This document shows, in pieces, positions 233-28,102 of a stretch of 35,935 bases of DNA. This DNA comes from a virus, in the IMG/VR virus record IMGVR_UViG_3300028412_000013, positions 1 to 35,935 of that record; one strand, 5' to 3'. Within the stretch, counting starts at the first letter, position 1, and every line of letters begins with the position of its first letter. Below the pieces are notes generated by a model. It saw only the letters and a program-made list of their open reading frames with translations, was not told where the DNA came from and did no database searches. The translations under genes and the position numbers were made by a program.

Positions 233-572
233 GGCCAAATAGTATGTCGTTCTTTAAATTTTCTACCTTTTGCACTCTTGCGATTTTTTTAAATTCTTGT
301 GCTGCAGTTATATTTCCACTTTTGGCGTGACTAAGAAGTCCTTCAGCTATAAGAAATTCTGCCTCGAGCAATCCTTTGTCATAATGGTGCCTTACCAGGG
401 AAGAATTTATATTCCACTCTTTTATAAAATGGGTCTCGTTTACACCCAGATACTTTGCTATGGATCTAGGAGCATAATTTGCAGCTGCTAATGTTTCAAT
501 TTCGCTGTATTGCTCCTCCGATAGCCTTAGCTCTGATTTTAACATCGGTAAAAATCTTTCTTCTGAATTCAT
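222..572 (-). CDS. Putative terminase small subunit (TerS-like)
   Basis: A protein of 116 residues when started at MNSEERFLPML. A longer frame is open to 659, but that would overlap the preceding PLD-like gene by more than 160 bases, so the internal start (or the Met at 545) is preferred. Residues about 17-55 form a helix-turn-helix-like unit (LSEEQYSEIETLAAANYAP, then IAKYLGVNETHFIKEW). This is followed by a helical segment ending EFKKIARVQKVENLKND, the pattern seen in phage small terminases, which bind packaging-site DNA and present it to the ATPase. It lies between a PLD-like gene and a second packaging-like gene. The family call rests on pattern and context only. Confidence 0.55.
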   Translation of the reverse strand: MNSEERFLPMLKSELRLSEEQYSEIETLAAANYAPRSIAKYLGVNETHFIKEWNINSSLVRHHYDKGLLEAEFLIAEGLLSHAKSGNITAAQEFKKIARVQKVENLKNDILFGHED

Positions 573-1116
573 AAGTTTCTTTTGAATTATAAAATAAGTA
601 CTGCTCGTAGTGCGCATTTTCACTATGATTTCCAGAACCTTCAATACCAAAATAAGCATCTTGTGTCTTTATGAGTGTGACTTTGGCGTGGGACCACGAA
701 TAGTTCACTATAAAATTTGCTCTACTACTTACCTGAGCTGCAAGAAGCTCCATAGTGGTAGGATTTCTTTTGATAAGAGAATCTGAAATCATTAAAGTGA
801 TCTGGTCACAGAAGCCCTTATCGTACAGTTCTATTAATGCATCTATAACCCTTCTACTTATAGAATAGGTACAGATATATAGGTGCTGTATATTATGATT
901 TTGCGCTATAAAGGGAATAAAAGTAAAGGCATTAAAAGAATTGTCTGTTTGCAAGAAAAAGAATTCTTCTACAGTAGGTAGCCGTTTGAGATCTTTATCC
1001 AGATGAGCTATTTTTTCAAAATGCTTATTGATGTATTTGGACTTAAATACAGAAGACACTTCATCTTTCGCCTCTTCTTTTGGAGGTTGCTGCAAATCAA
1101 AGAATCTGTTTTTCAT
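496..1116 (-). CDS. Phospholipase-D-like (HKD-type) phage protein
   Basis: A protein of 206 residues. The C-terminal half carries an HKD-like motif: SHAKVTL followed by YFGIEGSGNHSENAHYEQY (roughly residues 140-172), i.e. HxK, a spaced acidic/glycine turn and GSGN, as in PLD-superfamily phosphodiesterases. Only one such motif is present, so an active enzyme would need to dimerise. PLD-like proteins of this size are, as I recall, common next to terminase genes in Bacteroidota phages; whether they act as nucleases in packaging is not known to me. It overlaps the upstream frameshift-linked frame by 20 bases and the downstream TerS gene by about 77. Confidence 0.6.
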   Translation of the reverse strand: MKNRFFDLQQPPKEEAKDEVSSVFKSKYINKHFEKIAHLDKDLKRLPTVEEFFFLQTDNSFNAFTFIPFIAQNHNIQHLYICTYSISRRVIDALIELYDKGFCDQITLMISDSLIKRNPTTMELLAAQVSSRANFIVNYSWSHAKVTLIKTQDAYFGIEGSGNHSENAHYEQYLFYNSKETYEFRRKIFTDVKIRAKAIGGAIQRN

Positions 1117-1588
1117 TGAGCTTATTTTGTAGAAGTTGGCGTTTGGTCTCTTTTAGTTTTAAAATTCTAAGAGCATCTTCATCTAAGGGATCTGCTTTTA
1201 ACTTCGTCCTTAACCTAGAAATTTGTGAACTCATATTTTTATAAATCTTTAGGGCGTCTATATCGCTCATGTTTTCAATACCAGATCTAAGGTTGTCATC
1301 GTCAAAAATAGAATGCTTTCCCAATATCTCGCCCTTGTCCTGGTAATGCAAAAGCTCATTGAATGCCAACTGATTTTGTTGATAGGCCAAAACCGTACTT
1401 TGGGCAATTTTAAAAGAATCCTCTGGGCTCAAAGATTTATTCTCTAGATCTTGAACAAGTTTCTTTCTATTCTCATTTACAAGTACAAAAGCCGAAATCA
1501 TATCCGACGTCAATATCTTGAGCTTGTCCGGTACATTCGGCTTATTAAGAAATGGAAAGAGCTCTCTTATGCTTCGTTGGCCAAGCTT
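1097..1588 (-). CDS. Downstream (-1 frame) part of a frameshift-linked structural or assembly gene
   Basis: The frame opens directly after a TGA at 1598-1600 and runs from the A9 run through 163 codons. Between the A9 run and 1513 there is no ATG or GTG; the first possible start is a TTG at 1513, giving 138 residues. The segment before that TTG, RELFPFLNKPNVPDKLKIL, looks like genuine protein and recalls a conserved segment I associate with Bacteroidota phage proteins. It would only be translated as a fusion to the upstream gene through a -1 shift. The rest is helical and charged (NRKKLVQDLENKSLSPEDS; SRLRTKLKADPLDEDALR). Function unknown; virion assembly is inferred from position between head and packaging genes. 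Confidence 0.55.
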   Translation of the reverse strand, partial: KLGQRSIRELFPFLNKPNVPDKLKILTSDMISAFVLVNENRKKLVQDLENKSLSPEDSFKIAQSTVLAYQQNQLAFNELLHYQDKGEILGKHSIFDDDNLRSGIENMSDIDALKIYKNMSSQISRLRTKLKADPLDEDALRILKLKETKRQLLQNKLNEKQIL

Positions 1589-2079
1589 TTTTTTTGCTCA
1601 GTCAAAAATGCTTTAAGCGTGTCTGCCCTTTTGTTTGGAAAATCGATATTAATTTCATTGGCCAGACCAAAAGCAAGTTTTTTAATAGTGTTGTATTCTG
1701 CATTTTCGATATCCATAGCCTTCAGCTCTTCATTGTACTCTTCAAGTTGAAGCTTGTCTTTTTTTTCTTCTTTATCCTCTTTAGTTTCTTCTATTTCTTT
1801 TTCTTCTGAATTTGAATCGTCTTGGCTTGAAGCTGCTACTTTTTTAGCCGGTGTTTTTTCAAACTTACTAAGATCTGCAGGAGAAATACTATAAGATTTT
1901 TTGACATCGTACACGATAGCTTTCAAGTTCTTTTCTGAATAGCCAACCCTATTGTAATGCGCCGTAAGGGCAAAGTTTTTGGCAGGAGCTTGATTGAGCG
2001 CCATAAGCAACATAGAGAACTTCTGTCTCTTGTCTTGTTTTTGATCCGTTAGGATACTTATTACTGTTTTCTTGTCCAT
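1567..2079 (-). CDS. Upstream (0 frame) part of a frameshift-linked assembly gene
   Basis: A protein of 170 residues. Residues 1-75 are ordered-looking (FSMLLMALNQAPAKNFALTA). Residues 90-115 are a low-complexity Glu/Lys linker. The C-terminal part (DIENAEYNTIKKLAFGLANE, INIDFPNKRADTLKAFLTEQ) ends just after an A9 run. A late-type promoter lies 29 bases upstream of the start. A -1 shift on the A9 run would replace the last six residues with 163 others, giving about 327 residues. Short-plus-fused products of this kind recall the tail assembly chaperones gpG/gpGT of lambda, but here the tape measure is not adjacent, so that analogy is weak. Confidence 0.6.
   Translation of the reverse strand: MDKKTVISILTDQKQDKRQKFSMLLMALNQAPAKNFALTAHYNRVGYSEKNLKAIVYDVKKSYSISPADLSKFEKTPAKKVAASSQDDSNSEEKEIEETKEDKEEKKDKLQLEEYNEELKAMDIENAEYNTIKKLAFGLANEINIDFPNKRADTLKAFLTEQKKSLANEA
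1586..1600 (-). other. Candidate -1 frameshift site (A9 run)
   Basis: Read on the minus strand the site is TGA-GC-A9-G. In the zero frame the codons are CAA AAA AAA AGC, which contains the slippery heptamer A AAA AAA. The -1 frame is closed by TGA immediately upstream and then open for 163 codons. Ribosomal slippage or RNA-polymerase slippage on A9 would both join the frames. A homopolymer sequencing or assembly error would look the same. Confidence 0.6.
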
Positions 2080-2197: not shown

Positions 2198-3016
2198 CTA
2201 TGATCTAGACCGCTCAATTAAGAAAGTATCTGTTCCTGCAATAAAGACTTCGAAGGTGATTCTAGCATTGTCCAGACCAATAAAGCTTGTTCCATCTTTC
2301 AAGACAAACTTGGCATCTGTACCTGCAGCATCACTTATAACTGCTGGATCTGCACCACCGCCACCAATGACGCTTACAAAGCTTCCAGATGGAAAGTCTA
2401 TATCTGTAACTCCCACAGCTTCTCCTGTTGCAGAACTTGGTAATTTTACTAGTGCACCATTGGCTACTAGGAATTCTAGATCTGCAGCATCTGCTACAAA
2501 AACATTAGCAACAGGATCTGGGCCGCCAAATAAACCTGGCATAAGGTTATCGTTACTCATATTGGAAAATGTTAACTCATAGTGAGTGGTATCATTATCC
2601 ATTGTAAAGTTTGCTCTCATCTTTATTGGCGCACAAGTACTTCCAATAACGCTTTTTTGGTTTTGACCACAGCCTCCACCAAAAAGGACGATGACTTCAA
2701 TATCCATTTGCCCACCTACAAATTCTCTTATTTCTAGGCCATCACCGGGAAATCTTGCTGTAAGTGTTTTCTGGATGCTCGCGGCATCCTCATCCCCATC
2801 AGTTTCAAAACCGAAGTTTTGAAAAGAGCCTGTATTGTAGATTTTGAAAGGTTCTTTTCCTTGCTTCATCTCATATAGCCCTTCCAACAAAACGCCTTTG
2901 GCATTTGGTTGTGGGGTAGAAGCAAGATCTTCCACTTTCATTATAGTAATGAAAGGCGACTTGGCAACTGGTCCTCCTGGACTAGATAACTGTCTGTTTT
3001 TATCAATTAATTTCAT
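2198..3016 (-). CDS. Virion structural protein following the capsid gene (possible tail-tube or decoration protein)
   Basis: A protein of 272 residues with no signal peptide or membrane segment. It is rich in Gly, Asp, Phe and beta-branched residues, as beta-sandwich virion proteins are. The first 155 residues (with QNFGFETDGDEDAASIQK and FTMDNDTTHYELTFSNMSN) could form a tube- or decoration-type fold. The last 80 (DAADLEFLVANGALV, VLKDGTSFIGLDNARITFEV) look like a separate small beta domain. It is the second gene of the head operon, behind an attenuator-like hairpin after the capsid gene, suggesting lower expression than the capsid. I do not recognise the family; tail tube and capsid accessory protein are both possible. 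Confidence 0.55.
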   Translation of the reverse strand: MKLIDKNRQLSSPGGPVAKSPFITIMKVEDLASTPQPNAKGVLLEGLYEMKQGKEPFKIYNTGSFQNFGFETDGDEDAASIQKTLTARFPGDGLEIREFVGGQMDIEVIVLFGGGCGQNQKSVIGSTCAPIKMRANFTMDNDTTHYELTFSNMSNDNLMPGLFGGPDPVANVFVADAADLEFLVANGALVKLPSSATGEAVGVTDIDFPSGSFVSVIGGGGADPAVISDAAGTDAKFVLKDGTSFIGLDNARITFEVFIAGTDTFLIERSRS

Positions 3017-3074: not shown

Positions 3075-5273
3075 TTATGCTGCTATAGTTCTAGAGAATT
3101 CTGTCCAAATTCCATCTATAAGAATCAATACCAAAGTATCTTCTGGCTTAATAACTGCATCTGAGACTACAGAAATATTTCCTGCAACATCACTTACTGT
3201 TAAGTTTGCTTCACCGCTGTTAAGCAGAGTTAATTTCTGCTGCTCTGTACCGTTTTCTATTCCTGTAAGGGTAGTTGCATCACCATTGAAGGTTTGCGTT
3301 GTACCATTAGTAAGATCTACTGTCGCACTGTCGAAAGTAAAAGTTTCTGCTGGTGCGTTGCTAGCTTCAGTCGTTCTTTTAACTTCTTTGAGGGTTAAAG
3401 CAGGGGTTACCACCATAGTTAATGTACCTCCTGAAGACAGATCGTAGTCTGATGCCAAATCAAAAGTTGGATTGTCCTTAACAGAAGATGTAACCCCAGA
3501 TGTATTTCCTTTTATTCTTACAATTTGTCCTTCAAAAAGGTTTGCTTTTTCCAAGGTTGCAATGTCGGTTTCGAAACCAGGTACAATGCTTAAGTTGGAA
3601 TAAGTCACCTTCAATTTTCCAGACTTATCGTCGTGAAAAGGAATATAGAAATCTTTCTTAAAAGGAAAAACACCATTGGTCCAAACAGTTTGCACCTTGA
3701 AGGCGTCTGGATCATCATCTGTTACTTCTGTACCTAAGTGAATAAACGCACAACCAAACTTATAGTCTGCATGGCCGTAGATAATTCTCTTAAGTCTTTC
3801 AAAAGTCAATAAACCTTTCTCGTTGGGCACGTCTTCCATAATTTCGATATTATCATCGAACGTAATAAGGTGAACATTTGTACCATTAAGATCATGCAAC
3901 GGCTCAATACGGATATTCTCATAATTCTCGATAGTAAGACGATCATCTGAGGTGTAATCGTTCTCGATACCTCTTAATTGTCTATATCTCGTTTTGTACC
4001 AGCGCTCATGATCCTTTGGCATATAGTACACAAGATTGGAAGCTTCTTTGCTTTCTTCTTTTATGTTTTTCTCTATAACCATTTGGGCATAGTCCACAAT
4101 GTTCTCTGGAGTTGGTAAACCAATAGAAGGTACTTTCACTTTCTTGTCTATATATACCCCTTTGTATAATTGATAAAGTAAACCATTCTGGCGGTTTATC
4201 GCTCTACCGGCAACTGTAGCATCGTCTGGTGTAGCAACATAAACCCCTTTTATCGCTGACATTCTATCCTCGGCTTTAGCTTTTTTCATAAGCTCTGTTA
4301 CCAAAAATTGAACAAACGTCATTTTATAAGGAGTAGATCCTTCCATGCTCATTACACCTTGTAACCAGCTTTTCTCATATTTCTGCAAATCGTTTCCTAC
4401 CCATTCCAAATCTATACTTACGTCGAATATTTGACGAGTTTCTGGCTGGATTTTTTGATTGTTTTTTGCTAACCAAGGCAGTTTTCTGGCTTGTGTAATC
4501 TCGTCTGAAACGATTTTACCATCACTTATTCTGTCTTTTACACCAAAACGTGTTGGCCAAAAGCTTGGAAGCTCAATCATGTCTCTGTGAAGAGATTCTA
4601 TAGTGCTTGGATTTTCTCTATAGAAAAGCTCAACATCACCATTAAGACGTTGCAAGTTGATCTCGCCAGCTGTGCCATCCCAACTTGTTGCGTTTTTGGT
4701 AAGTCCTGCAGCTCTTTGGTTCCATGGTCTGCTTGCAAATTCGTTAAGAGCTTGATTGTCTCCATAGAGGTGTGTGGCAGAGTGTTTTAAATTCTTCATA
4801 TCTCCATTTTTATTAAGTGGAATCACTGGATCTGGCTCAGGATCTTCTATGAGCTTGGCGATCATGAGGTCTGTCTTTTTTTGGTAAGCTTTAAAGTCTG
4901 AAATAAGACCTTCCAGACTTGCATCTGAAGTATCTCCTTTCTTATCTTTAGACTTATCGCCTTTACCGTCTTTTGCAGATCCTTTATTCGCCATATCGCG
5001 AATTTCTTCTTCGGTGTAACCGGAAGCTTCTAAGCTTGCTTTGAATTCTGCGCGAGCATCTTCAATAAGTTTTTTACTCGACTCTTCATCTAGTACGTTC
5101 TTTGCTTCTTTGTTTATGGCCTTTACCATAGTTTTGAAGTCTTTCTCACCGAGTGCCTCGATGATCTTTTTCTCTTGGTCTTCTGTAAGATCCAATTTCC
5201 CTTCTTTTATGGGAGTTTTTTGAATCCCCAAAATGGCCCAGAGAAAACCAATAGTCTTGCTTAATCGATTCAT
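3075..5273 (-). CDS. Major capsid protein with N-terminal scaffold-like and C-terminal beta domains
   Basis: A protein of 732 residues, long for a capsid subunit. Residues 1-150 are charged and helical, with a low-complexity Lys/Asp linker near 95-115 (KDGKGDKSKDKKGDTSD), resembling a cleavable scaffold or delta domain. Residues about 155-560 form the likely coat domain, with GVYVATPDDATVAGRAINR and VYYMPKDHERWYKTRY. Residues 570-732 look like an Ig-type beta extension ending in LVLILIDGIWTEFSRT. It follows an S49-type protease gene by 20 bases, the classic protease-capsid order. I infer it is the HK97-type major capsid protein, processed at its N-terminus by the upstream protease. The fold itself cannot be read from sequence by eye. 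Confidence 0.75.
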   Translation of the reverse strand: MNRLSKTIGFLWAILGIQKTPIKEGKLDLTEDQEKKIIEALGEKDFKTMVKAINKEAKNVLDEESSKKLIEDARAEFKASLEASGYTEEEIRDMANKGSAKDGKGDKSKDKKGDTSDASLEGLISDFKAYQKKTDLMIAKLIEDPEPDPVIPLNKNGDMKNLKHSATHLYGDNQALNEFASRPWNQRAAGLTKNATSWDGTAGEINLQRLNGDVELFYRENPSTIESLHRDMIELPSFWPTRFGVKDRISDGKIVSDEITQARKLPWLAKNNQKIQPETRQIFDVSIDLEWVGNDLQKYEKSWLQGVMSMEGSTPYKMTFVQFLVTELMKKAKAEDRMSAIKGVYVATPDDATVAGRAINRQNGLLYQLYKGVYIDKKVKVPSIGLPTPENIVDYAQMVIEKNIKEESKEASNLVYYMPKDHERWYKTRYRQLRGIENDYTSDDRLTIENYENIRIEPLHDLNGTNVHLITFDDNIEIMEDVPNEKGLLTFERLKRIIYGHADYKFGCAFIHLGTEVTDDDPDAFKVQTVWTNGVFPFKKDFYIPFHDDKSGKLKVTYSNLSIVPGFETDIATLEKANLFEGQIVRIKGNTSGVTSSVKDNPTFDLASDYDLSSGGTLTMVVTPALTLKEVKRTTEASNAPAETFTFDSATVDLTNGTTQTFNGDATTLTGIENGTEQQKLTLLNSGEANLTVSDVAGNISVVSDAVIKPEDTLVLILIDGIWTEFSRTIAA

Positions 5274-12077: not shown

Positions 12078-12635
12078 CTAAGGGGTTTGTGTTGGTATTT
12101 GGTAAGGGAATCCTGCTCCATCCAATTGCAAAAAGCCTGCAGAAAAAATACTCCTGCAGGTGTATTGAAATTGTGCCAGCTGCTCATTGGAAGTGTACTC
12201 GCAATTCAATTTTTTATTTTGCTTATGGTCGTTTCTACCAATGACTAAAACAGATCCATTACTCAGTTTCAAAAAAACATACCTGGCAGAAATCAGTTTC
12301 TTTATTTTGGTGCTGCGATCATATTCGGATCTAGGCATGCTAATCACTACTTGCTGTGAGTAAAAACCTCCAGATCTGTTATCTTGAAAACTCTCCCGAA
12401 ATTGAGTTTTTGACCGGCTTACATATATAGCCTCGAATGTATCTGGGGGAAGTGAGTCAAAAAAGTTTTGAGATAACTCTGCACCCTTTACATGATCTAG
12501 ATCTTTGTCGAAGCTTAATAAAACTTCACAGATGTAAGGATTATAACTTAACTTCTTGTCTAACACAGGATTATTGTTTCTCAAATTTACGAGTATTTGC
12601 GAATATAATCGCACTTTAAGCGAAATATATATCAT
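12078..12635 (-). CDS. Baseplate/tail-tip protein, unrecognised family
   Basis: A protein of 185 residues. The C-terminal two thirds read as a beta-rich domain: FYSQQVVISMPRSEYDRSTK, ARYVFLKLSNGSVLVIGRND, then QFQYTCRSIFSAGFLQ. The recurrence of a FxNG-LIIG-type strand followed by a closing F-x-x-GFL is typical of small tail-tip proteins I have seen in Bacteroidota phages, but I cannot name the family. It ends one base before the fibre protein start, so the two genes are coupled and probably act together. Confidence 0.55.
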   Translation of the reverse strand: MIYISLKVRLYSQILVNLRNNNPVLDKKLSYNPYICEVLLSFDKDLDHVKGAELSQNFFDSLPPDTFEAIYVSRSKTQFRESFQDNRSGGFYSQQVVISMPRSEYDRSTKIKKLISARYVFLKLSNGSVLVIGRNDHKQNKKLNCEYTSNEQLAQFQYTCRSIFSAGFLQLDGAGFPYQIPTQTP

Positions 12636-24247: not shown

Positions 24248-27200
24248 TTATAGTTTTGATGATTCTTTTCTTTTTCTGAATTTGTCTAGGGCTTCTTGGA
24301 GTTCTCTGGCATTGGCTTCACTAGCAATAACCTTAGCCATGATGCCGCTTTCTATAATCTTATTGAGCTTAATAAGAGTATTTGTGTTTTGGGCGATAAG
24401 CAGTGCCATCTCATTAGTTGTTCCTTGGCCAGTTTCTTCTTTATAAAAACCGTCTTGGAAACCACGAACGGTAGACAACTGCCTATTGAGGGTTTCCTTA
24501 AGATCTGGTGTGAGCTTGGCATAATCGCCACCAGTAATAATCATCTCTGGGGCTTGCTTTCCTTGTTCTCCTGCAAGAAACGTAGTAGGCTGGTCTACAA
24601 GTCCAGATCTAGACATACCACCATTTATGGCGTTGAATATCTTACCGTCTTGCTCCCGCTTTACAGGAAAAGTATCACCGTAAAAGCCTTCTTCATAACC
24701 AGGTGTAGATAGTACCATTGCTGCTTGTGCAACACCCAAAGCAGAAACAATACCTGTAAGTATCCCTGCACTAATACCAAAGTCGAACTTTGGTACTTGC
24801 GCCCAAATACTCATAATAGCTTGAGCAGTATTTATAGCAATGGATGCGAGAGCCATTGTTTTTTCTCGCTCAGCCTGTTTCTTAGCAATCTCTTCCTTTT
24901 TCTTTTCAAGATCTTCATCCATATTAGCAACAGCATCGTTATACTGGCGCTCATTTATATATCCTGAATCTAATCTGTCTTTAAGAATTTGCTTTTCTCG
25001 ATTGTTATTTTGCTCGAGCTGCTGCATCCTAGCGTTTTCATTTTGGCTACGCATATTGGAAAACATAGCAAAAGCATTATTCGCTGCAGCTGCTACCATT
25101 ACAACACTTTCTAGAACATTTTCTAAATCTCTAAAATTGGTAAACATCGTGTCGTATTGCTCGGGTGTAAAACCAAGGATGTCTGTATTACCACCAAGAC
25201 CAAGATCTCCAAGTGCGTCTGCTTGTCCTCCATTACTCATTTGAGCTAGAAGAAGATTAATTTGTGAAATTTCTAAACCTAAGACCTGAAGTCTAGCAAC
25301 AATTTGGTTCTTCTGTTCTTCTGTAAGGAGCTCAATGTCAAATCCTTTAAAGGTATCTGTGTCGTTTATATTTTGGATGTACTCTTTAAGCTCTTGGATG
25401 TGAGCTTTCTCTTTTGCTAAATCCTCTCTACGAAATTGATCTTTAAGCTTTTGAGTTTCTTCCTGTGAACTTGCTACAGCTCTTAATTTTACGTTACGAG
25501 CTTCTTGAATTAAAACTTGTTCTTGCAGGTATTGATCTTCTAATAATCTTACTTCATCTTCGATCCCATCACTAAATATTTGAGATCTCCTTTGCTGATG
25601 TATTTCATCTTGAGTTTCAATATTTTTATTGATTTGCTCATTTTGAAGAAGAAGCTTATTGGCTTGCTTTAATTTGCCTTTATTTTTAAGTTCTTGAATA
25701 ACTTCTTCAGAAGCAAGCTGACTTTGCAAATCTTCATTAACTCGCTTGTTTCTTAAATCTTCAAGAGCTAATTCTTTTTGTAAACCTTCTTGCATTACCT
25801 CCAACATAGAGTCTTCACTATCTCTAGTAAGTTGTAAGAGTTTATCTGCAAATTCCTTTTCAGAATTAAGACTGCCTTGGTTGTTTTGAGTAGTTCTCAC
25901 TCGTTCCCATTTGCCGTTTTTGTAGACAAATGAAATATCACCTATGCTTTTGGTTTCACCTTCTTTAGGTCCAGTACTACCTTCTACTGGATTAAAAAAA
26001 GCTTCTACATCTTCTGGACTAAAATCGAGTTGTTTTAATTTTTCTGTAAGATCAATTTGCTTTTGGATATTAGAATTGAGTTCTACTCTAGCATCAGCTA
26101 ATGCTATAAGTGCATCCCTACTTGCAATGACCTCTGGTAATCTAGATCTTTCACCCAACTGCCCTCTCTTAGTTGTGGCAGTTGGAGTAAAGTCATCAAG
26201 AGCTTCGTTCTTAATACGCTCTCTAATCGCAAGTTCTGATTCTAATTGTTTTACACCATTTTCTAGTGCAGCTTGACTGTCCTTTGCTCCTTGCAAACGG
26301 GATGCAAGCGTACTCGCTTCTTCATCTGCCTGTAGTCTTTTTAATTTTATCTGTTCTCTTACAGCTTCAGTATTGAGTTTGAAAGCTCCAGTCTCTTCAT
26401 CTATCATTAATACAGATTCACCAAGACGATCCTTAAGTAGCAGAGTAATAGTTTCTAGCCTTTCCTTTACCTCTATTGTAGGCTCAACACCGTCCTTGGT
26501 TAACTCTTTATATTCTTCTAAAAGCCTAGAGCTTTCTCTAGCTAATAATCTATTATTTTGTGCAGCCTTAAAGGTTTGCACGTTTTGTTTCTCAAGAGCT
26601 TCAGAAACATCGTCTACAATTCCAAACAAATCTGCAAACCCACGGATAAAGCTTTCAAGTGGAGCTTTTAGTCCAGCTAAAAAACCATTTAAAGCTTTAT
26701 TAATTTTACCTACTACAGCAGCAAAATTTTCATTTTTAAGATTGTACTCGTTAGTAAGGGATGTATTTTCTCTTAGGGCTACGCCAGCCTGTTCTTGTCT
26801 TTTTCGTAAAAGATCTGTATCACTAGCAAGAGCAGAAATAGCTTGCATACCTCTTGTGCCTCCAAGCTCAATCCCTTTAAGACGTTGTGCCATGGTTTCC
26901 ATTGTAGGATTACCTTTGTTAATTCCTTCAAGGAAAACAATAAGCGCTTCGTTGGCATCTTCTTCCAAAAGTTTGGAAAACTCTGCTATAGAAAGACCTG
27001 CTATACTAGCAAAATCACTAACGTTCTCACCCATAGAAAGCAAGGTTTTATTGATAGCAGTGGCAGAAATTTCACGGCTTTGGCCAAGCTCATCAAAAGC
27101 TGCAGCCAAACCTATAATTTTATCAGCTTGTATGTCTGCGAGGTCTGAAACCCCTGCGGTACGCTTCATAAAATCTACAAGGAAATCTGCGGTGTTGGCA

Positions 27201-28102
27201 CCAGAAGCAGAAATTTCGTTTATGGCAGACCCTAAAGACTGCATAGACTTTTCAAAACTTCTTCCAGTTTGCTCACCAACTTGAAAAATGTTGGTCATTT
27301 TACCAACTTCTCGTATAGCCTGGTCGGAAAGATCATCGCCTAAAGCAACCTTCATTTGGTTGGCACTTTCTACAAAGCCCATTATGTTTTTAACACCTGT
27401 TATTCCTAAACGGCCTGCTTCTTCCGAAAGGCCCAGAAGCTCCATACGCGAACTTCTTGTATCGAGTTGTCCAAAACTTTTAGTAAGCTCGTTGACTTCA
27501 TCTATAGTAAGACCAGTTGTTTTTTGAACATTACTTTGAGCGTCTGCGAGTTCAGAATTAAAGTCAATCACCCTCTGTATAGAAAAGGCAATGCCAGTAA
27601 GACCCGCTATTACTGAAACTCCCAAAGCTGCATAACGGTTAAATCCATCTGCCAATCCACTAAGAGAGAATTTAGCAGCATTGGCTTGGGTGGCCAGTTG
27701 CTTTATTCTAGAATTGGTTGCAGTAAGATCCAGTTGCAAACGTTTATACTCTGCGGATCCTGGTACCATATTACGCAATTGCAAACGTAATGTAGAGGCT
27801 CTTTTTTGCAATTGAGCCATGGTAAGACCCGTTACCCCTATTTGATTTTGCAACTCTTTCATTCTTGCCTTATTGGCGTTTATGACAGAGTTGTTTTCCT
27901 TTATAGAAGCAGAAAGTTTCTTATACTCGGCAGTGTTTTGCTTACCCTGAGCACGGAGTTTATCCCTTTCTGCCCTAAGCGTTTTGTTGGTAGACGTAAG
28001 TTTTCTAGTTTGAGAATCTAGACCCTGAAGCTCTTTTTGTGCGGTGTCTCCATTAATAATAATGGAAAACCTCATTTCCTCGTCTACAATGCGCTTTCCC
28101 AT
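24248..28102 (-). CDS. Tail tape measure protein
   Basis: A protein of 1284 residues. The N-terminal 150 residues are long coiled coil (ELQGLDSQTRKLTSTNKTLR). A hydrophobic segment at about 155-180 (AALGVSVIAGLTGIAFSI) and the TP901-type core follow, with FNSELADAQSNVQKTTGLTI, EAGRLGITGVKNIMGFVESA and ISASGANTADFLVDFMKRTA. Another coiled-coil region covers 780-1020. A second hydrophobic patch near the end (ALASIAINTAQAIMSIWAQV) and a GGMSRSG tail region follow. Such proteins set tail length and pass into the host membrane during injection. Its size suggests a flexible tail of roughly 190 nm by the usual 0.15 nm per residue. Late promoter A lies 17 bases upstream. Confidence 0.93.
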   Translation of the reverse strand: MGKRIVDEEMRFSIIINGDTAQKELQGLDSQTRKLTSTNKTLRAERDKLRAQGKQNTAEYKKLSASIKENNSVINANKARMKELQNQIGVTGLTMAQLQKRASTLRLQLRNMVPGSAEYKRLQLDLTATNSRIKQLATQANAAKFSLSGLADGFNRYAALGVSVIAGLTGIAFSIQRVIDFNSELADAQSNVQKTTGLTIDEVNELTKSFGQLDTRSSRMELLGLSEEAGRLGITGVKNIMGFVESANQMKVALGDDLSDQAIREVGKMTNIFQVGEQTGRSFEKSMQSLGSAINEISASGANTADFLVDFMKRTAGVSDLADIQADKIIGLAAAFDELGQSREISATAINKTLLSMGENVSDFASIAGLSIAEFSKLLEEDANEALIVFLEGINKGNPTMETMAQRLKGIELGGTRGMQAISALASDTDLLRKRQEQAGVALRENTSLTNEYNLKNENFAAVVGKINKALNGFLAGLKAPLESFIRGFADLFGIVDDVSEALEKQNVQTFKAAQNNRLLARESSRLLEEYKELTKDGVEPTIEVKERLETITLLLKDRLGESVLMIDEETGAFKLNTEAVREQIKLKRLQADEEASTLASRLQGAKDSQAALENGVKQLESELAIRERIKNEALDDFTPTATTKRGQLGERSRLPEVIASRDALIALADARVELNSNIQKQIDLTEKLKQLDFSPEDVEAFFNPVEGSTGPKEGETKSIGDISFVYKNGKWERVRTTQNNQGSLNSEKEFADKLLQLTRDSEDSMLEVMQEGLQKELALEDLRNKRVNEDLQSQLASEEVIQELKNKGKLKQANKLLLQNEQINKNIETQDEIHQQRRSQIFSDGIEDEVRLLEDQYLQEQVLIQEARNVKLRAVASSQEETQKLKDQFRREDLAKEKAHIQELKEYIQNINDTDTFKGFDIELLTEEQKNQIVARLQVLGLEISQINLLLAQMSNGGQADALGDLGLGGNTDILGFTPEQYDTMFTNFRDLENVLESVVMVAAAANNAFAMFSNMRSQNENARMQQLEQNNNREKQILKDRLDSGYINERQYNDAVANMDEDLEKKKEEIAKKQAEREKTMALASIAINTAQAIMSIWAQVPKFDFGISAGILTGIVSALGVAQAAMVLSTPGYEEGFYGDTFPVKREQDGKIFNAINGGMSRSGLVDQPTTFLAGEQGKQAPEMIITGGDYAKLTPDLKETLNRQLSTVRGFQDGFYKEETGQGTTNEMALLIAQNTNTLIKLNKIIESGIMAKVIASEANARELQEALDKFRKRKESSKL

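Follow-up and report, generated by a model that had tools for sequence, protein, structure and literature searches.

An apparent one-base slip on nine A's joins two reading frames of a phrog_21662 gene in a virus of Bacteroidota

We describe a viral gene that appears to give rise to both a short and a long protein by means of a one-base slip on nine consecutive A's, in a virus of Bacteroidota. The gene is found in a DNA stretch of 35,935 nucleotides, referred to below as the window, which comprises positions 1 to 35,935 of the IMG/VR record IMGVR_UViG_3300028412_000013. Computational analysis of the window and its relatives yields the arrangement of the two frames, a slippery heptamer in the correct phase, the conservation of the join, selection on both halves of the gene, recurrence of the same split across a protein family, a conserved stem in one class of relatives, and the gene neighbourhood. 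Taken together, these results make it very probable that the shift is programmed, and we regard a reading in terms of one gene with two products as probable, the function being what we infer, together with the production of the long protein, the machine that slips and the short-to-long ratio.

Results

The gene carrying the slip site occupies positions 2079-1097 on the minus strand of the window. Its zero frame, ORF1 (1567..2079, minus strand), encodes 170 residues arranged as an N-terminal domain followed by an acidic linker and a terminal segment, LKAFLTEQKK/SLANEA. The last codons of ORF1 read GAG CAA AAA AAA AGC TTG GCC AAC GAA GCA TAA and include the A9 run (1587..1595, minus strand; T9 on the plus strand), in which the heptamer A_AAA_AAA is in frame at 1588-1594; the TAA stop (1567..1569, minus strand) is located 18 nt 3' of the heptamer. 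The -1 frame is shut just upstream of the slip site by a TGA (1598..1600, minus strand) and then stays open until the TGA at 1097-1099. This second frame, ORF2 (1097..1597, minus strand), has 166 codons plus the stop, 163 of them after the slip, and contains a conserved C-terminal domain (1100..1567, minus strand; RExFPFL...ILGKHPIF), which is predicted to be all-helical in a homologue, L103. Normal decoding would produce the 170-aa short form, and a slip of one base back on the A9 run, where A_AAA_AAA is in frame, would produce a long form of 164 + 163 = 327 residues, with ORF2 supplying its C-terminal part, including the conserved domain. The N-terminal domain and the linker would be the part common to both forms. 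The preliminary description of this DNA had given the coordinates and the 327-residue joined protein correctly and is completed here with the strand, which is minus.

The A9 run is the sole homopolymer of at least nine A or T within the whole window, and an in-frame A_AAA_AAA is found only once in the 8,869 codons of the window's other genes, so that its presence here exceeds what chance would give. No ATG, GTG or TTG was found ahead of the conserved RELFPFLNKPNVPDKLKIL segment in ORF2; 28 codons precede the first TTG and 32 the first ATG, and both lie 3' of that segment, in agreement with the earlier suggestion that the second frame has no start of its own that would keep its N-terminus. The 3' end of ORF2 and the start of the next gene, described below as PLD-like, share 20 nt (1097-1116, minus strand), an overlap that could couple their translation.

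A PHROGs profile search assigns both frames to the same family of unknown function, phrog_21662, which is 288 residues long; ORF1 matches positions 4-110 and ORF2 matches positions 117-276, i.e., the two matches are consecutive. The cultured relatives that were found, namely Flavobacterium phages 6H and laban6-1, Cellulophaga phage Ingeline (Duneviridae) and Bacteroides phage BT-TP2, all carry the homologue as a single continuous gene. They have the same N- and C-terminal domains as the window and a similar gene neighbourhood but differ from it in having one unbroken frame with no frameshift. The structural model of L103, which is also a single ORF, is all-helical; it has two domains modelled with confidence and, between them, a linker of low confidence, and a fold search with this model in the PDB and in a viral library returned nothing informative. 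The family had no match in a plasmid collection, and of 395 genomes searched across the phylum only 3 carried it.

Searches with the C-terminal domain, combined with the loci collected earlier, gave 121 distinct sequences, which were sorted into 31 split genes, 82 single ORFs, 6 with a short open stretch and 2 truncated ones. In 31 of 31 split loci the shift is in the -1 direction and a slippery heptamer, A_AAA_AAA or A_AAA_AAG, is in frame within the overlap; the label "split" demanded a heptamer by definition, and the split-looking loci excluded are L008, L113 and L039 only. The 31 include near-identical contigs of one clade, and the independent cases are fewer. Each of the 31 has at least one in-frame heptamer, in overlaps that average 21 codons; the linkers of the single-ORF relatives contain 12 in-frame A_AAA_AAR sites among their 4,920 codons in total, and 10 of the 82 linkers have one. 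Of the split loci, 19 were examined for an ATG, GTG or TTG ahead of the C-terminal domain, and none has one. The -1 frameshift joining two frames, as proposed in the preliminary description, thus holds up well, with split, heptamer, direction and missing internal start recurring in other lineages, to a total of 31 distinct loci, and with a conserved 3' stem in one class.

The split loci were grouped into class I (the window's clade and L108), class II (L104, L106, L111, L115, L116 and L145) and class III (Bacteroidales prophages and contigs), with L166 alone outside these classes. On a tree of 90 rows, which dates from before the final homologue searches, the split state requires 4 changes, of which well-supported branches make 3 or more unavoidable; the family seems to have acquired or lost the frameshift on several occasions. 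Among the excluded loci, L008 has A8 and still contains the heptamer. In L113 (1940-2281) the gene is split, but its overlap lacks a slippery heptamer and a TTG stands ahead of the domain. In L039 (4521-5001) the N-terminal part and the C-terminal domain are in different frames, and the change of frame, well 5' of where the junction usually lies, looks like an indel error or decay. When the linkers of L103, L104, L116, L166, L075 and the window (about 1590-1670, minus strand) were inspected by eye, those of classes I and II and of L166 were seen to contain a helix-extended-helix-like motif that ends at the slip site; a Pfam search gave no match for this motif.

The split is kept in eight related IMG/VR contigs with about 90% protein identity in ORF2. 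The run length in these eight is A9 in seven and A8 in one (L008), and A10 is found in none. A run of A8 or A10 that gives one uninterrupted frame had been named beforehand as a finding that would speak against the frameshift; in the relatives, A10, which is the length needed to join the frames, is absent and the A8 of L008 joins nothing. Compared with L002, the part of ORF1 ahead of the slip has a dN/dS ratio of 0.175 and ORF2 one of 0.116, with dS of about 0.45, and both halves are under purifying selection. In L108 synonymous divergence from the window is saturated, yet the split, the sequence CAA AAA AAA AGT and the A9 run are retained. A second run of A's inside ORF1, an A8 (1759-1766), is broken in the relatives; consequently, A-runs are not conserved in this gene by default. 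Comparison with homologues had also been suggested as a way to separate programming from error. The part of this expectation that concerned split relatives was borne out by their conserved slippery run, whereas single-gene homologues, which had been expected to signal an error, occur in cultured phages and rather represent another state of the gene.

The signals around the slip site differ between classes. Classes I and II and L166 have exactly A9, with the exception of L008, in two codon phases. No 3' stem is evident in the window's class, where the fold z ranges from -1.3 to +0.9; L145 and L166 have A9 plus a fold z near -3. A structure shortly 3' of the heptamer is common in genes with a programmed -1 frameshift, though not obligatory. 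Eleven class III loci (L066, L067, L068, L187, L188, L191 and L226-L230) have A7 or A8, followed after a 4-nt gap by an 11-bp stem in which GCCGCAAAAAG pairs with CTTTTTGCGGC. In this helix 97.5% of the cells are paired, and one compensatory change, from G-C to U-A, occurs in L067; most of the stem pairs are invariant, so that covariation alone is thin. The stem gains further support from synonymous divergence, which is 0.18 in the first arm (codons 1-8) and 0.19 in the second (codons 17-24), compared to 0.39 between the arms and 0.40-0.70 in blocks further on. Because the second arm is located 3' of the ORF1 stop, dual coding does not explain its suppressed synonymous divergence. In the class III loci L028, L070, L190, L192 and L200 the slip occurs immediately before the stop and the 11-bp stem is missing; L028 and L070 have a strong fold of another kind. 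A pseudoknot is not claimed for class III, where the helix 2 cells are 86% paired and the pairs are incomplete in L187, L228 and L230.

Directly upstream of the frameshift gene is the gene of a predicted major tail tube protein of 272 aa with a separate C-terminal beta domain (2198..3016, minus strand). The AF2 model of this protein, made with 48 homologues, has a pLDDT of 86. Foldseek found nothing at E below 0.001 with the model. The VIA-align list consists nearly entirely of tail tube, Hcp, tail cap and neck proteins, which match within approximately residues 1-171, the phage tail tubes over residues 6-171, with Z of 9.5 for an 80alpha baseplate model chain, 8.5 for the SPP1 tube and about 8 for the lambda tube; the C-terminal part matched a tailspike domain. 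The Z scores are moderate and the consistency of the match list is persuasive, and we consider a tail tube the predicted identity of this protein. A tube homologue is found upstream in 85 of the 111 loci that have enough upstream DNA (L048, L058 and L106 are among those outside this set) and within 300 nt in 68. The location of the frameshift gene between head and packaging genes had been described as unusual; it is less so given the predicted tube gene directly upstream, which is the place of G/GT in lambda. Directly downstream is a PLD-like gene of 206 aa (496..1116, minus strand) with a weak PLDc_2 match below the cut-off, and the genes further downstream are HTH and terminase genes. The predicted tape measure protein (PhageMin_Tail; 24248..28102, minus strand) is not adjacent but about 20 kb off, and the tape measure gene is distant in the relatives, too.

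Two further observations concern other genes of the window. A putative capsid protein of 732 aa (3075-5273, minus strand) and the 272-aa tube protein (2198-3016, minus strand) seem to share a domain, and the tube profile also matches the capsid-position genes of many loci, with E of about 1e-22 to 1e-5. The ORFs 12635-12078 and 12187-10649 (minus strand) share 110 nt (12078-12187); the start of the second is perhaps further downstream.

Discussion

In the window's class, either the ribosome could slip or RNA polymerase could insert one additional A into the mRNA, and the two could also act together. We give a nearly even chance to the possibility that the shift on A9 is mainly due to polymerase slippage, which would generate mRNAs with an extra A and leave the two-product outcome unchanged. 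Runs of nine A or T cause efficient slippage by bacterial RNA polymerase (PMC5009743), and, L008 apart, the run is exactly A9 in the window's class, in class II and in L166, in two codon phases; moreover, most A9 loci have no strong 3' structure, whereas loci of the class with A6-A8 often have one. On the other hand, the A9 is partly dictated by the encoded Q-K-K-S or A-K-K-K and its length is perhaps not under selection, the ribosomal heptamer is in frame everywhere, class II also has A_AAA_AAG, and A9 is combined with the folds noted above in L145 and L166. The pattern suggests that the same join may be made by different machines in different relatives, as is the case among the homologues of dnaX, where the products arise by ribosomal frameshifting with a stem loop in E. 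coli and by transcriptional slippage on a run of nine in Thermus thermophilus (PMC5009743). In both cases one gene would have two products, and the homologues apparently fall into those with a heptamer plus 3' stem and those that rely on a run of nine. The present family differs from dnaX in that the gene is another one, the long form would be the product of the shift wherever the gene is split, and the majority of relatives are unsplit.

The likeliest role of the two products, in which we have moderate confidence, is that of a tail assembly chaperone pair acting like gpG/gpGT of phage lambda; this assessment derives from the location directly downstream of the predicted tube gene and from the overlapping short and long forms. 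The total length of lambda gpG/gpGT is similar to that of the window's product, and its slippery site is G_GGA_AAG, unlike the A_AAA_AAA or A_AAA_AAG of the window family. In lambda the gene immediately follows the major tail tube gene, as the gene in the window follows a predicted one, and a -1 shift near the end of the first ORF gives, or in the window would give, a long form with the same N-terminus; in the window both traits are read from the sequence. By analogy with the lambda model (Xu, Hendrix and Duda 2004, Mol Cell, as described in PMC5009743), the tape measure protein would be covered by many copies of the short form, and a small number of long copies would recruit the tube subunit. 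The window family differs from lambda gpG/gpGT in its lack of detectable similarity to chaperone families, in the separate location of the tape measure gene and in being mostly encoded by single ORFs. No chaperone profile in Pfam or PHROGs matched, and the model of the homologue L103 gave no informative fold match. Frameshifted tail chaperones are already well known, with an annotated joined gene, nearly always a tail chaperone, in 2,476 of 3,679 SEA-PHAGES genomes (PMC10885494); the present family has not been recognised as belonging to this group. We do not claim membership in a chaperone family because one defining feature of such genes, a tape measure gene next door, is absent here.

It is quite possible, at somewhat less than even chance, that the shift is programmed and the protein serves packaging, DNA binding, regulation or scaffolding instead. 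The absence of chaperone profile matches is consistent with such roles, and so are the PLD-like, HTH and terminase genes that come next, HTH and terminase being part of a downstream synteny, and the resemblance to helix-extended-helix motifs that we infer by eye in the linkers of classes I and II and of L166. Against these roles stand the tube gene directly upstream in most loci, the similarity of the short and long pair to lambda G/GT, the all-helical homologue model, and the fact that inspection revealed no rival chaperone candidate beside the tape measure gene. More tentatively, the chaperone reading may be extended to a new family of Bacteroidota phage chaperones for tail assembly, unrelated to those known, in which the frameshift was repeatedly gained or lost and is made by polymerase slippage on A9 in some members and by the ribosome with a stem in others; we consider this broader proposal possible but rather doubtful. 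Most relatives are single ORFs, and the short form is therefore not required family-wide. If the proposal is true, the family offers a natural series for asking why a short form is needed at all.

We found no paper on a frameshift in a phrog_21662 gene in the open-access literature, to which the search was confined. If our interpretation is true, a likely role can be proposed for this family, and many Bacteroidota phages and prophages would have their gene calls put right where the gene is split into two hypothetical genes or the start of the second frame is lost. Members with a single ORF, with A9, and with a heptamer and stem exist side by side and allow a natural comparison of how a particular short-to-long ratio is achieved and why it is needed.

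Translation of ORF2 on its own, initiated at a non-standard codon or coupled to termination at the ORF1 stop and with no frameshift involved, is very improbable. Reinitiation is conceivable in that the ORF1 stop is located just ahead of the ORF2 domain, but the in-frame heptamer, the exclusively -1 direction and the class III stem positioned as for a frameshift argue against it, and a start belonging to ORF2 was rejected because 0 of the 19 split loci checked have an ATG, GTG or TTG before the domain. Most improbable of all is that the split results from faulty sequencing or assembly, or from decay into a pseudogene, and that the true gene has a single frame like that of 6H or Ingeline: homopolymers are prone to errors, L008 has A8 and the homologues in cultured phages are single ORFs, but this explanation was rejected in view of conservation, selection and recurrence, given that the split is common to separate contigs with A10 in none, that both halves are under purifying selection, and that the same split, direction and heptamer are found in a class that has A6-A8 runs only, part of it with a conserved stem. 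A +1 shift was likewise rejected, as the relatives indicate -1 alone and L008 resembles +1 only through one missing A. The slip region of L008 (near 5002) has A8, while its near-identical sisters L007 and L009 have A9, and the difference reflects either variation within the population or an assembly slip.
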